Assembly (NCBI RefSeq): GCF_015163655.1
Contig: NZ_JADEUF010000007.1
Span: forward strand, 1-63,828
Direction of reading: 5' to 3'
DNA from: Xenorhabdus griffiniae
GTDB taxonomy: Bacteria > Pseudomonadota > Gammaproteobacteria > Enterobacterales > Enterobacteriaceae
Length of the DNA stretch: 63,828 bases
Part shown: in pieces, positions 1 to 5,161 of the stretch
Layout: every line of letters begins with the position of its first letter
Position numbering within the stretch: position 1 is the first letter of the stretch
Made by a program: the position numbers and the translations under genes
Notes under the pieces: model-generated
Told to the model about the DNA's origin: nothing
What the model saw: the letters and a program-made list of their open reading frames with translations, nothing else
The model's database searches: none

Positions 1-111
1 CTTAGAAACCGAATTAAGCGGCTGAATCGTAAAACATTAGGCTATTCAAAATCACCGGAAATGCATGACAAAGTCATCGGGACTTTTATCGAAAGAGAAT
101 ATTATATTTAA
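1..111 (+). mobile_element. IS1-family transposase, C-terminal fragment cut by window edge
   Basis: The first 36 codons are open from the window edge to a TAA at 109-111. They contain KRLNRKT followed by EMHDKVIGTFIE, which matches the C-terminal end of the IS1 InsB transposase (KRL-RKT ... EIHDKVIGTFIE in E. coli IS1). Most of the gene lies outside the window, so intactness cannot be judged. No clear IS1 right inverted repeat was recognised after the stop. It borders the accessory decarboxylase/pentein/ABC cassette, which fits a mobile or recently rearranged segment. Family assignment is by recall of the motif. Confidence 0.7.
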
Positions 112-581: not shown

Positions 582-1307
582 ATGAGTAACAAAATGAACG
601 AAGCCATTAAATCGATATTTAATGGACTCCCTGATCTTCCGCCTGAAACTTATTTCCAGGAAGGCTTTTTCAGGGACCCAGCGAGAACAATCAATACAGA
701 TGATAGGTATTTTTTATCTCCTGCTGATGGGTTTGTCATCTATAGTGGGATAATAAACCCAGATGAAGCGATCACCGAAGTAAAAGGAAAAAAATATAGC
801 ATTCAAGATATCATCAGAGATAAACATTATGACAAGCGTTCGCTGGTCATTGGTATCTTTATGACATGCTATGATGTGCATATTAATAGAATTCCTTACG
901 ATGGTATCCTTAGTTACGCGGAACATGAACCTCTGGAAACCAACAATCTACCAATGATTGATGTAGAGAATAATATTTTTTATAAAGAGAACATTGAATT
1001 AATTTATGACGACTATTTATATTTAAATCAAAGGGTTGTCAATAAGGTCTATTCGCCTGGCATTAATCGAGAATACTATATGGTTCAAGTCGGTGATTAT
1101 GATGTTGATACGATAACACCGTTCCATATACAACAAAATACGCCTGTATATCAGGGTGATAGATTTTCAATGATTCGGTATGGTTCACAAGTCGACTTGG
1201 TGATCCCTGTTGCTGATGATGATGAATTAACTTCATTAGTCACTGAAAAGGAACATGTCACTGGTGGTATGACGAAGTTAGTTAGAATCAACGATAACTC
1301 TCTATAA
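582..1307 (+). CDS. PSD-like pyruvoyl-dependent decarboxylase
   Basis: A 241-aa soluble protein of the phosphatidylserine decarboxylase (PSD) family. Family landmarks are in order: SPADG (Asp49), VHINRIPYDG (His100), and RYGSQVD near the C terminus, with Gly201-Ser202 as the predicted self-cleavage bond that would create the pyruvoyl group on Ser202. These match the Asp-His-Ser triad of PSD maturation. No N-terminal membrane segment is visible, unlike canonical E. coli Psd (about 320 aa). Start ATG 582 follows AGAGGT. Related soluble PSD-fold enzymes decarboxylate free amino acids (fungal PsiD acts on tryptophan), so a lipid substrate is not implied. It sits 33 bp before a pentein hydrolase and upstream of an ABC exporter. 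Family assignment is firm; the substrate is unknown. Confidence 0.8.
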   Translation: MSNKMNEAIKSIFNGLPDLPPETYFQEGFFRDPARTINTDDRYFLSPADGFVIYSGIINPDEAITEVKGKKYSIQDIIRDKHYDKRSLVIGIFMTCYDVHINRIPYDGILSYAEHEPLETNNLPMIDVENNIFYKENIELIYDDYLYLNQRVVNKVYSPGINREYYMVQVGDYDVDTITPFHIQQNTPVYQGDRFSMIRYGSQVDLVIPVADDDELTSLVTEKEHVTGGMTKLVRINDNSL

Positions 1308-1340
1308 ACAAATAATATAAACTAGAATTGAGGTTTTAAG

Positions 1341-2267
1341 ATGTTAAAGAATTCTCCTAATATCATTTCTGATCTGAAAATGCCCGTGTTTTTATTAGCT
1401 CCTCCATTTTCATTAAACACCAATGTAAGAAATAACATTTGGATGGAGGAACTGGACGAATCCGCTATCAATGTTAATAGCAAAGTGGCTTTAAGACAGT
1501 TCTATAAGCTATATAGCTTTATGTCATCACAATCGTTGGTCTATCTGTTGCCATCCGATACTCACCAAGAGCTACAAGATCAAGTATATGTTGCTAACTT
1601 GGGTATTATTATTGGAGATGAAGATCCAACAGCAATAGTTGCTAATTTTGCATCAGAAATCAGAAGATCAGAAACACCTATTGGAGTCAGTTTCTTTGAA
1701 TCATTGGGCTATAAAACTGAAGTTGCCCCTTACTATTTTGAAGGTGAAGCTGAATTAAAACATTTGCATGATAATGTCCTGGTCGGTGGTTATGGTATAA
1801 GAAGTGATATTAAGACCTATGACTGGATGGAAGAAAAATTCGACCTCAAAATCGTGAAAGTGGAAGAAAAAGATCCTTATCTTTACCATTTGGATTGCAG
1901 CATTTTCCCACTGGATAAAGAAAATACGCTCGTTTATACCGGCGGATTCAACAGCGACGAGCTGAAAGAATTGGAGAAAGTCACCAACATTATCAGCATC
2001 AGTAAAGATATTGCATACAGTGGGATTTGTAACTCTGTCAGAGTCAATCAGCATATTCTTTGTTCATCCAATATTAATGATCTGAAAGCAGGCACGGAGG
2101 AGTATATCTATGAAATGAACAAAAACCATGAGCTGGAAAAAGTTTGCTCTAAATTGGCATTAACACCAAAACTTTTCAATTTATCTGAATATATGAAGAG
2201 CGGCGCCCTGCTTTCCTGCATGGTTATGCATTTAAATAGGTATTCTTATAAAATACAAGTAATCTAA
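1341..2267 (+). CDS. Pentein-fold hydrolase/amidinotransferase (DDAH/arginine deiminase-like)
   Basis: A 308-aa protein of the amidinotransferase/DDAH superfamily, whose members act on guanidino groups of arginine derivatives. Visible landmarks: LQDQVYVANLG with Asp80; FEGEAE with Glu134/Glu136; a YHLD segment with His183; and KSGALLSCMVM with Cys293, the position of the nucleophile in the family (GG-x-x-C-M). All four catalytic positions appear present. Start ATG 1341 follows TTGAGG. It is the second gene of the cassette, 33 bp after the PSD-like decarboxylase, so the two are probably co-transcribed. Joint presence of a decarboxylase and a guanidine-processing enzyme suggests modification of an arginine-related substrate, but this is inference. 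It could also be an agmatine deiminase-type or amidinotransferase enzyme. Confidence 0.75.
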   Translation: MLKNSPNIISDLKMPVFLLAPPFSLNTNVRNNIWMEELDESAINVNSKVALRQFYKLYSFMSSQSLVYLLPSDTHQELQDQVYVANLGIIIGDEDPTAIVANFASEIRRSETPIGVSFFESLGYKTEVAPYYFEGEAELKHLHDNVLVGGYGIRSDIKTYDWMEEKFDLKIVKVEEKDPYLYHLDCSIFPLDKENTLVYTGGFNSDELKELEKVTNIISISKDIAYSGICNSVRVNQHILCSSNINDLKAGTEEYIYEMNKNHELEKVCSKLALTPKLFNLSEYMKSGALLSCMVMHLNRYSYKIQVI

Positions 2268-2345
2268 AAATTGCAGCTTGCAAATCAATGTAATTTTTTA
2301 TATCTCCCCGCGAAGCGGGGAGATATAAGACGCATCTTGAAAGGT
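2263..2345. repeat. Dispersed hairpin element, copy A
   Basis: A 14-bp perfect stem (TTATATCTCCCCGC, arms 2298-2311 and 2315-2328, loop GAA) lies inside flanks that match copy B1 at 5056-5161. It sits between the pentein gene and the ABC transporter gene and could end or attenuate transcription, though no T-tract follows. The terminal inverted repeats seen in other copies are degenerate here. Confidence 0.7.
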
Positions 2346-2480
2346 AATTAGCATAAGTTGTATTTTATTGCCATAGAATAAATGTATTCTAAGGATGGAG
2401 TTAGTCGCTTTTTGGTAGGATGATAAGTTTTAACATGTTGTCTATACTAGTTAGATTGATAACTTAACAGTGATCAGTAT

Positions 2481-4178
2481 ATGAAATATATTATATTCCT
2501 TTATTCTTTTATACGTAAACAAAAAACAGCGTTGGTGCTGGCTATTGTTTTTACGGTAGTGGCTGCTTTAGCGGAGGTTGTATTTCCATTCCTGGTTCAG
2601 GAATTAGTCAATACTTTATTAAAGGATAAGCTAATTCTTTCTTTCTCATTTAATGAATTAATTGCTTCTCTAATTGCAGTATCATTATTGATTGTCATCA
2701 GTCACGCTATTATTATTTGGATGCAAACAATTAATGCATCAGAACTGAGTTATAATATGAGGAAATCGCTAGTCGATTCTTTCCTCTCTTTTCCTTATCA
2801 TATCACCAGAAAATTTCATTCAGCGAATCTGGCATTCAGAATAAAAAATGATACTTACCTTGTATCAGATAGAGTTAGAGATTTATATAGCGAATTTCTT
2901 TATGATACGTTATCAATAATCGGCCCATTTATTGCTATGGCCCTGATTGATATTAAATTGGCGATTTTGGCATTTATGATGGTTTGTCTGACGACTTTAA
3001 TCAGCAAGCCAATCACTAACCGAGTGGCTGTTTATGAAAGAATTCTGCAAATTTATAACTCACGATTGACCGGCGTCATCCAAGAATCACTTTCTTGGAT
3101 CAAATCTGTCAAGATTTTCAATTCTGAAGAGTCGGAGAAAAAGAGAATTAATGATGCTAATACTAAAGTGAAAAATGTTGAGAGGATCACCGGACTGTTT
3201 ATGTCCCTATCTATTCCTCTTGGCTTTTTTGCACAGTTAGCATCGACCATTGCTGTGCTTTGGTATGGTGGTTTGCTATTGATGGATGGAACGATCAACC
3301 CTGGTAACTTTGTTGCTGCATTTACCTATGAACAATTGATGTCTGATTCCATTAAGAGATACAGTAATCATTTAAATAAATTTGCTTCACTCAAGTCGTT
3401 GTTGGACAGGGTTTTCGAATTGTTGGGAGCATACCAGCCAAACAATCGCAAACAGAGCCAATCAGTGGAAAATTGTAGTGCCAATGCTATTGATATCAAC
3501 GTTAAGAAATTTTCCTATAACGACAGAGATACTTTGTTCAGAGACATGAATATCTCTATACAAAAAGGAGAACGGGTTCTTATCGTCGGTGATAATGGCC
3601 AAGGTAAAAGTACGATATTTGATATCGTGACAGGTTTAACACCACTAAACGAAGGCTACGTTTCAATTTTTGGTGAAGTGCTGGATAATCCTGATTCTCA
3701 GCGCTGGTTACAAAAATTTGGTGTGATGTCACAACAAACTCAGATTATAAAGGGCACGTTATACGATAATTTGCACATTGCCAATACAGAATCAACCAGG
3801 GAAGAGATGATTTCTGCGTTGATTAAAGCAGGTGGCCATGAACTGTTGGACAAATTGAAAGATGGCCTGGATTCATACATTGACGAAAAAGGCTCTTCCC
3901 TGTCGGGTGGTGAAAGGCAGGTAATTGGGTTAGCGCGTTTGTACCTTAAGACACCAGAAATACTGCTATTTGATGAACCTACGACCTATCTGGACAATAG
4001 TAAAATAAATAGCTTTGCTGAGTCATTGAACAATATTGTTCGCGGTAAAACAGTGCTTATGATAAGCCATGATCCGCGTGTATTTAAACTGGCTGAGCGA
4101 GTAATCCGAATCGACAAAGGGAAAATTGCATTCGATGGTTCCCTACAAGAATATATGGAGCAAGCAAGAGCAAACTAA
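2481..4178 (+). CDS. ABC exporter, fused membrane and ATPase domains
   Basis: A 565-aa half-transporter of the ABCB/MsbA-like exporter type. An N-terminal six-helix membrane domain (about residues 1-310) is followed by an ATPase domain. Walker A is GDNGQGKST (370-378), Q-loop SQQ (417-419), signature LSGGERQ (474-480), Walker B EILLFDEPT (493-501), and H-switch ISHD (528-531); all are intact. It likely works as a homodimer and exports the product of the upstream decarboxylase and pentein enzymes, or gives self-protection. The 213-bp gap before it holds hairpin element A, so it may have its own promoter. The Shine-Dalgarno sequence before ATG 2481 is weak. Substrate unknown. Confidence 0.85.
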   Translation: MKYIIFLYSFIRKQKTALVLAIVFTVVAALAEVVFPFLVQELVNTLLKDKLILSFSFNELIASLIAVSLLIVISHAIIIWMQTINASELSYNMRKSLVDSFLSFPYHITRKFHSANLAFRIKNDTYLVSDRVRDLYSEFLYDTLSIIGPFIAMALIDIKLAILAFMMVCLTTLISKPITNRVAVYERILQIYNSRLTGVIQESLSWIKSVKIFNSEESEKKRINDANTKVKNVERITGLFMSLSIPLGFFAQLASTIAVLWYGGLLLMDGTINPGNFVAAFTYEQLMSDSIKRYSNHLNKFASLKSLLDRVFELLGAYQPNNRKQSQSVENCSANAIDINVKKFSYNDRDTLFRDMNISIQKGERVLIVGDNGQGKSTIFDIVTGLTPLNEGYVSIFGEVLDNPDSQRWLQKFGVMSQQTQIIKGTLYDNLHIANTESTREEMISALIKAGGHELLDKLKDGLDSYIDEKGSSLSGGERQVIGLARLYLKTPEILLFDEPTTYLDNSKINSFAESLNNIVRGKTVLMISHDPRVFKLAERVIRIDKGKIAFDGSLQEYMEQARAN

Positions 4179-4242: not shown

Positions 4243-4935
4243 CTACGTATAGTCTCTATATTCAAAATTCAAAACGGTCTCAGCAAATTCCCCTAGTTCG
4301 ATCTCTGAATTTTCAAATTTCGGATGGTAATTTTTCCATAAATCGACATATCTTCTTTCTATCCAAGGTGGAGATACTGGCGAACCATCTAGCCAGAATT
4401 GTATGCAGGATTGAACCCTTGGATCTTTCCTGTTTCGGTATATCCATCTCAGTTCTTTGTTGGTATATGAGTCTTTTCCTTTGTTGATTTTTGGGTTGTT
4501 TTTTTTATTGATAGCATTCTCCATATCTATTCCATCTAAGATAAAATGGATACTTGCATGGTTTAGTGAGTGAGAAAACCAAGATAACCCAGCCTTACAT
4601 TTTCGGCTTGTTATTCTTCTAGGGTAGTAAACGTTCCCATTATTATAATCAATATCATAGTTATCTTCTTGATTGAGTATGTCTTTGTATTTCCAGTGTT
4701 TCATTACCGCCGTTGTAAAGCTTTCTTGATTATGAGGAATCTGTTGTCCGTACATCTTACGTACCTTAATTTCATTTTGAGTAATTGAATATCTATCAAG
4801 GGTTGATATGTTATTAGAATCAAGAAACAGCTGAAATTCTGGGTATTTTTGAGCATATTGTTTTCTCTTATCATCTAACCAAAATATAAGATCCCCTGAT
4901 TCAAAAGAAATTTTAAATGGTTGATAAAATGACAT
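4243..4935 (-). CDS. Hypothetical protein, unrecognised
   Basis: A 230-aa hydrophilic protein with no signal peptide or membrane segment, rich in aromatic, basic and asparagine residues. Start ATG (4933-4935) follows AGAGGA. A central stretch (about residues 105-165) reads KAGLSWFSHSLNHASIHFIL, followed by DGIDME, a basic linker, and then TNKELRWIYRNRKDPRV. The paired Trp/His-rich and Arg-rich segments look like a folded domain, but I cannot name the family. It is convergent with the ABC exporter and followed by a hairpin-element cluster, so it belongs to the accessory island. It could be an effector, toxin or cassette accessory; nothing visible decides. Confidence 0.7.
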   Translation of the reverse strand: MSFYQPFKISFESGDLIFWLDDKRKQYAQKYPEFQLFLDSNNISTLDRYSITQNEIKVRKMYGQQIPHNQESFTTAVMKHWKYKDILNQEDNYDIDYNNGNVYYPRRITSRKCKAGLSWFSHSLNHASIHFILDGIDMENAINKKNNPKINKGKDSYTNKELRWIYRNRKDPRVQSCIQFWLDGSPVSPPWIERRYVDLWKNYHPKFENSEIELGEFAETVLNFEYRDYT

Positions 4936-5055: not shown

Positions 5056-5161
5056 TATACTAATTCAACTTCAAATTGCAGCTTGCAAATCAATGTGATT
5101 TTTTATATCTCCACGCGAAGCGGGGAAGATATAAGACGAATTTTGAAAGACGAGTGGTATA
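5056..5161. repeat. Dispersed inverted-repeat element, copy B1
   Basis: About 106 bp. The left end TATACTAATTCAACTTCAA and the right end (complement TATACCACTCGTCTTTCAA) form imperfect terminal inverted repeats. An imperfect central hairpin (TATATCTCCACGC / GCGGGGAAGATATA) resembles copy A. It abuts copy B2, sharing the TATA ends. Confidence 0.75.

Follow-up and report, generated by a model that had tools for sequence, protein, structure and literature searches.

Three adjacent genes at the start of a contig of Xenorhabdus griffiniae raise the question of what their products make together. The stretch analysed, hereafter the window, covers positions 1 to 63,828 of contig NZ_JADEUF010000007.1 and begins at base 1 of that contig, in a host genome of 4.22 Mb. 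Its list of open reading frames (ORFs) contains three intact genes in forward orientation between positions 582 and 4178, encoding a decarboxylase of the phosphatidylserine decarboxylase (PSD) family, a pentein hydrolase resembling arginine dihydrolases, and an ABC exporter. A preliminary description of this DNA had proposed a joint small-molecule pathway for the trio. Co-occurrence across phyla bears out the joint pathway, but the unit is the pair of pentein and PSD-like enzyme and not the exact trio. That these two enzymes form one small metabolic pathway we regard as close to certain. Our best explanation of the whole, to which we assign a probability of roughly 0.4, is that the pentein is an arginine dihydrolase and the PSD-fold enzyme decarboxylates ornithine, the diamine being exported in bacteria and used in phages; the route from arginine through ornithine to putrescine is itself tentative. 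What has been computed is gene content and intactness, selection, linkage, conservation of residues and predicted folds; the chemistry is predicted.

Co-occurrence of the pentein and the decarboxylase

The first gene (582 to 1307) encodes a protein of 241 aa with a PS_Dcarbxylase match (PF02666, E = 1.9e-31) of 109.7 bits against a gathering score of 22 bits, which places it in the PSD superfamily. After 33 bp follows the pentein gene (1341 to 2267, 308 aa), whose product matches the pentein family DDAH_eukar of Pfam (4.9e-9). The third gene (2481 to 4178, 565 aa) lies beyond a gap of 213 bp and encodes an ABC half-transporter with ABC_membrane (PF00664, 1.8e-29) and ABC_tran (PF00005, 3.3e-27) domains. 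This protein is MsbA-like and matches NCBIfam exporter families under their cut-offs; no peptidase domain was seen in it by domain scan. The ORFs and Pfam domains thus confirm the row of three genes described earlier, with a repeat-bearing gap before the ABC gene.

Within Xenorhabdus, the pentein profile matched 11 of 30 genomes, nine above 600 bits and two at 59 and 45 bits. All nine Xenorhabdus copies hold psd, pentein and ABC genes together, an association that is more than chance; the ABC gene is partial where the sequence ends, and in genome G204 (L027) it was matched as two overlapping pieces, which suggests a frame break. The cassette genes are 92-98% identical to named Xenorhabdus records and at least 99% identical to G206, a genome of the same species. 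Values of dN/dS against the window copy were 0.02-0.07, for psd in four Xenorhabdus and for pentein and ABC in four Xenorhabdus and one Photorhabdus. In Photorhabdus, the cassette pentein was found in one of 12 genomes (569 bits) and a weak pentein (72-80 bits) in 12 of 12. A transposase-like ORF interrupts psd in Photorhabdus tasmaniensis (L017 610-2435), where pentein and ABC genes are intact.

Strong matches were few among the other bacteria sampled, and the cassette is therefore rare there. The pentein profile matched 12 of 369 Gammaproteobacteria, where 110 bits were exceeded only in the genome under study and in G958 (417 bits), and 95 of 395 Bacteroidota, with only G225 (587 bits) and G430 (290 bits) above 90 bits. 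The PSD profile (E <= 1e-15) matched two of 398 Pseudomonadota, the genome under study at 444 bits and another at 67 bits. In the gammaproteobacterium G958, PSD (47% to the window, tblastn), pentein (51%) and a MATE exporter form a run of touching genes following a PPK2 gene. Three Bacteroides loci, two of them near-copies and with domains verified in L018 only, carry a single run of a large penicillin-amidase-family gene, pentein (47-48%), PSD (about 31%) and a MATE-like exporter; the L018 exporter scores 23.7 bits with MatE, slightly under the 24.9 cut-off. The penicillin-amidase-family protein that heads this operon (PF01804, L018 6049-8001) has no evident signal peptide by eye and is a possible tailoring or deprotecting enzyme. 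In G430 the pentein (41%) is present and the PSD partner missing. Weak penteins (below 110 bits) in seven stretches (L079-L085) have no PSD relative among the listed ORFs, the pentein of L082 being itself unlisted. A distinct, weakly related pentein adjoins a carbamoyltransferase-like gene (NodU-type, by eye) in three genomes, two of them from Xenorhabdus (L084, L085, L011).

The pair is far from confined to bacteria. Scanning IMG/VR yielded 49 loci for the pentein and 11 for PSD, and 38 of these 60 contain both genes within the retrieved DNA; the 22 without PSD comprised six of Campylobacter phages and 16 of a PSD-less pentein clade. Wider profiles gave 216 pentein and 228 PSD matches, from which the best 80 of each were used. 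Both genes were present in 153 of the resulting 157 loci (L168-L324), on the same strand and in the order pentein-PSD, within 300 bp of each other in 152; the remaining four loci run up to the sequence end. The viral loci overlap, since one contig may appear as several of them. Distinct pentein sequences with a PSD partner in the same viral locus numbered 106. The major capsid protein gene lies immediately 5' of the pair in 121 of the 153 loci, phoH immediately 3' in 139, and both in 129, these neighbour clusters being tied to named proteins of locus L109. Further clusters in 101-126 loci resemble, by eye, scaffold, protease and other head genes. Other settings of the pair are next to terminase (L115, and L110 by likeness) and, by eye, among genes for tail (L114) or replication (L111) functions; gene names around the phage pairs were in many cases assigned by eye. 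Among 50,697 INPHARED records, the pentein was found in 47 (40 Campylobacter, six Bacteroides thetaiotaomicron and one weak Xanthomonas) and PSD in 45, every one also pentein-positive. Pentein and PSD are about 42 kb apart in Campylobacter phage NCTC12673 and adjacent in Bacteroides phage DAC19. The proteins of the window and of L109 belong to PHROGs 12759 (pentein) and 12670 (PSD), both of unknown function.

The co-occurrence search that the preliminary description had proposed therefore finds pentein and PSD together in Xenorhabdus, Bacteroides, G958 and phages. Its exact trio does not hold as the unit, because the exporter is of the ABC type in Xenorhabdus and Photorhabdus and of the MATE type in Bacteroides and G958, and the 157 phage loci contained no relatives of the bacterial ABC, MATE or acylase proteins (tblastn, E <= 1e-6). 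Trees built from one sequence per 70% cluster (30 pentein rows above 250 residues, 25 PSD rows above 200 residues) give no answer as to which carried the pair earlier, bacteria or phages.

Predicted chemistry and its alternatives

The best fold and profile matches of the pentein are dihydrolases, and its nearest fold is ArgZ. ArgZ/AgrE of cyanobacteria converts arginine to ornithine, CO2 and ammonia. The catalytic and substrate residues N71, E118, R139, H168, D170 and C264 of AgrE are present in the pentein as N86, E134, R154, H183, D185 and C293, with AgrE numbers read by eye from the alignment and C293 assigned by motif, since the alignments stop earlier. The importance of N71 and C264 is taken from PDB titles, and functional roles for E118, R139, H168 and D170 are presumed. 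Unlike ArgZ/AgrE, the window pentein consists of one domain of 308 aa and lacks the ornithine cyclodeaminase part, has a decarboxylase partner, and scores under the curated equivalog cut-off for arginine dihydrolase (NF052232, 79.8 vs 450 bits); FEGEA(D/E)xK, invariant in its family, replaces FEGAGD. A conserved arginine, which we take to bind the substrate carboxylate, is present in all 206 rows outside the PSD-less phage clade and in none of the 16 within it, and its retention favours an amino acid as substrate. The pentein is predicted from fold, residues and profile to hydrolyse the guanidine group of L-arginine, yielding ornithine, CO2 and ammonia. In the PSD-less clade (L136-L150, L153) Phe stands in place of this arginine in all 16 rows, and the substrate there is probably different.

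The decarboxylase fits the label "soluble" given to it earlier, since its best 19-residue mean hydropathy is 0.94 (2.71 in the ABC protein) and no stretch of membrane-helix grade was found in it. It scores under all listed PSD equivalog cut-offs (best 85.1 vs 183 bits required). In the family alignment G201, S202 and H100 are invariant in 193 of 193 rows and D49 in 190, and R31, N149, Q191 and H225 are specific to the family. It shares the SPADG Asp, the DVH His and the Gly-Ser cleavage site with PSDs such as that of E. coli and the archaetidylserine decarboxylase TIGR00164. The enzyme is predicted to cleave itself at Gly201-Ser202, with D49 and H100 as active-site motif residues, which would yield a pyruvoyl group, and it would then decarboxylate the free amino acid produced by the pentein, most likely ornithine to putrescine. 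Unlike those PSDs, it has no membrane part, carries its own R31/N149/Q191/H225, falls below the cut-offs and coexists with a housekeeping enzyme: a separate, better-scoring PSD (132-211 bits) lies elsewhere in six of six cassette-bearing genomes examined. The reading as an ordinary housekeeping PSD is rejected on this ground, in line with the preliminary description. By sequence its closest solved relative is PSD, and structure comparison finds a matching fold in the arginine decarboxylase 9jer of Aspergillus oryzae. The latter and the tryptophan decarboxylase PsiD are fungal, larger and only 11-15% identical to the PSD-like enzyme, and we know of no pentein partner for either. With the PSD-like model as query, BFVD returned three giant-virus PSDs and one orfan at E values of 2.6e-6 to 7.3e-5; none of the matches at E < 0.001 was a phage protein.

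The same pathway may run through another intermediate, with the pentein stopping at citrulline or the PSD-like enzyme acting first to give agmatine, so that the product would be N-carbamoylputrescine or agmatine-derived. We hold this to be unlikely, although an arginine decarboxylase of matching fold is known (9jer), ADI and DDAH structures are likewise near the pentein, and an agmatine-deiminase-family (PF04371) gene is found together with the pair in 10 of 49 phage records, or eight of 47 without L122 and L125, which were added knowing of the gene. Such genes lie near the pair in L118, L121/L135, L122, L124/L125, L126/L127 and L163 and at greater distance in L111, L123 and DAC19, the domain being verified in L163 and L121 and the Cys/His motifs seen by eye in four sequences. 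The family includes peptidyl-arginine deiminases, and the two proteins tested fall under agmatine deiminase cut-offs. Two queries found the gene in seven of the 50,697 INPHARED records, a tblastn search that could miss more distant members; six are near-copy Bacteroides phages with the pair, and the pair is missing from the seventh, an unverified fragment of 16.7 kb. Its company with the pair points to arginine, agmatine and putrescine metabolism. Against the other intermediates stand the dihydrolases as best fold and profile matches and the probable carboxylate-binding arginine, with its loss in the clade that lacks PSD. The arginine-type substrate suggested in the preliminary description is thus supported as a hypothesis, and its order of steps appears reversed: guanidine hydrolysis is predicted to precede decarboxylation. 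AdoMetDC occurred in none of 51 phage records, most of them possibly fragments, which weighs against a longer polyamine route and led us to reject a spermidine pathway via this enzyme. Both phage sets were selected by hand and consist mostly of contigs above 35 kb, the set of 49 being that of 51 with four dropped and L122 and L125 added.

Somewhat less probable still is a non-polyamine product that bacteria would export as an antimetabolite or signal, its source being either an uncommon amino acid resembling arginine or the transfer of an amidino group. The amidinotransferases AGAT, SxtG and HsvA have the fold of the pentein, and the two dedicated exporter types, the Ntn-type acylase of Bacteroides and the patchy distribution (9/30 Xenorhabdus) would suit such a metabolite. 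So would the NRPS/PKS-type genes 3' of the cassette in Photorhabdus tasmaniensis, where it adjoins a dehydrogenase, AMP-binding/PP-binding genes and, by eye, a PKS-like gene.

It is very improbable that the phage pair serves hypermodification of DNA bases, for example to an amine-bearing base, with the bacterial cassettes as a side use. Many pair-carrying phages look T4-like, DAC19 has an IMPDH/GMP-reductase-domain gene close to the pair (L167 15895-16869), and a look-alike gene of PHROG "dehydrogenase" occurs in the related lineage L111 (8791-9777). Campylobacter Fletchervirus DNA is reportedly modified. However, the commonest setting of the pair is the head operon and not nucleotide genes, and the bacterial exporters suggest a free small molecule. 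Least credible is a PSD-like enzyme acting on phosphatidylserine-type lipids beside a separate arginine-scavenging pentein, the link being regulatory, since its PF02666 score and nearest solved relative are outweighed by the missing membrane segment, the missed equivalog cut-offs, the separate housekeeping PSD and the near-constant phage pairing with an arginine-type enzyme.

Surroundings of the cassette

Positions 1 to 111 (forward strand) are the 3' end of an IS1 transposase gene, 36 codons plus the stop codon (PF03400, 2.7e-11), which lies outside the cassette and is incomplete because the contig starts there. The adjacent IS1 fragment noted earlier is therefore real but incidental, as other strains carry the cassette in an ordinary chromosomal context. 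Left of psd in G206, X. sp. BG5 and X. thuongxuanensis lies an unrelated gene set in opposite orientation, so that extending the locus leftward through these relatives yielded no further cassette gene. X. indica and X. budapestensis carry the same trio at a different chromosomal site, with a cholesterol-oxidase-like gene 5' and queF 3' (domains verified in X. indica). Between positions 400 and 581 (forward strand) is an AT-rich region, a probable promoter or leader with a ribosome-binding-site-like AGAGG. When seven upstream regions were aligned, the last 180 bp or so before psd agreed among six from Xenorhabdus and much less with Photorhabdus; as this segment is kept at both Xenorhabdus chromosomal sites, the cassette appears to move with its probable promoter.

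The gap between pentein and ABC genes contains a multicopy intergenic repeat (about 2268 to 2356, no strand), which we take to be ERIC-like; this palindromic repeat recurs at 5073-5149 and in tens of places in the genome. A 230-aa ORF on the reverse strand (4243-4935) partially resembles the C-terminal region of effector models from the EspK/GogB family (E 1.9e-11, far under the cut-off) and was found in BG5 and G206 and not seen in L012 and L014. Plasmid-borne spread was rejected, since plasmids show only relatives below 60% identity, annotated, where annotated, as PSD or DDAH/arginine deiminase. Phage PSD had no match on plasmids; a PSD stretch on a Streptomyces plasmid is unannotated. A role in anti-phage defence was likewise discarded, PADLOC giving no match for either enzyme.

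Proposed pathway and its meaning

Under the preferred arginine-to-putrescine reading, gene order suggests that the dedicated ABC or MATE exporter of Xenorhabdus, Bacteroides and the gammaproteobacterium would secrete the diamine or a close derivative. The phage pair has no exporter with it and mostly adjoins the major capsid gene; it would provide a diamine late in infection, plausibly for the neutralisation of packaged DNA. More doubtful is the wider proposal of a widespread phage module, in which an arginine dihydrolase and a decarboxylase of a fold new for ornithine would sit in the head operon, provide diamine at the place and time of DNA packaging, and be shared with bacteria, in either direction, as an exporter cassette for the diamine or a derivative.

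Virus-encoded polyamine modules are described in PMC9992855, namely arginase with ODC, and pyruvoyl ODC/ADC derived from AdoMetDC. As presented there, they follow the same arginine-to-putrescine logic as proposed for the pair, but their protein folds differ. The term phosphatidylserine is absent from the main text of PMC9992855 and PMC10407285, and our searches of the openly licensed PMC literature found no description or function of the pair.

The finding turns two PHROG families without assigned function (12670 and 12759) into a linked, testable pathway. Should the predicted chemistry hold, enzymes of the PSD fold would constitute an additional putrescine-making route, and phages that make a diamine beside the capsid gene would allow direct tests of the means by which packaged DNA is neutralised. 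For Xenorhabdus, an insect pathogen, the export would amount to secretion of a small molecule that has so far not been sought.

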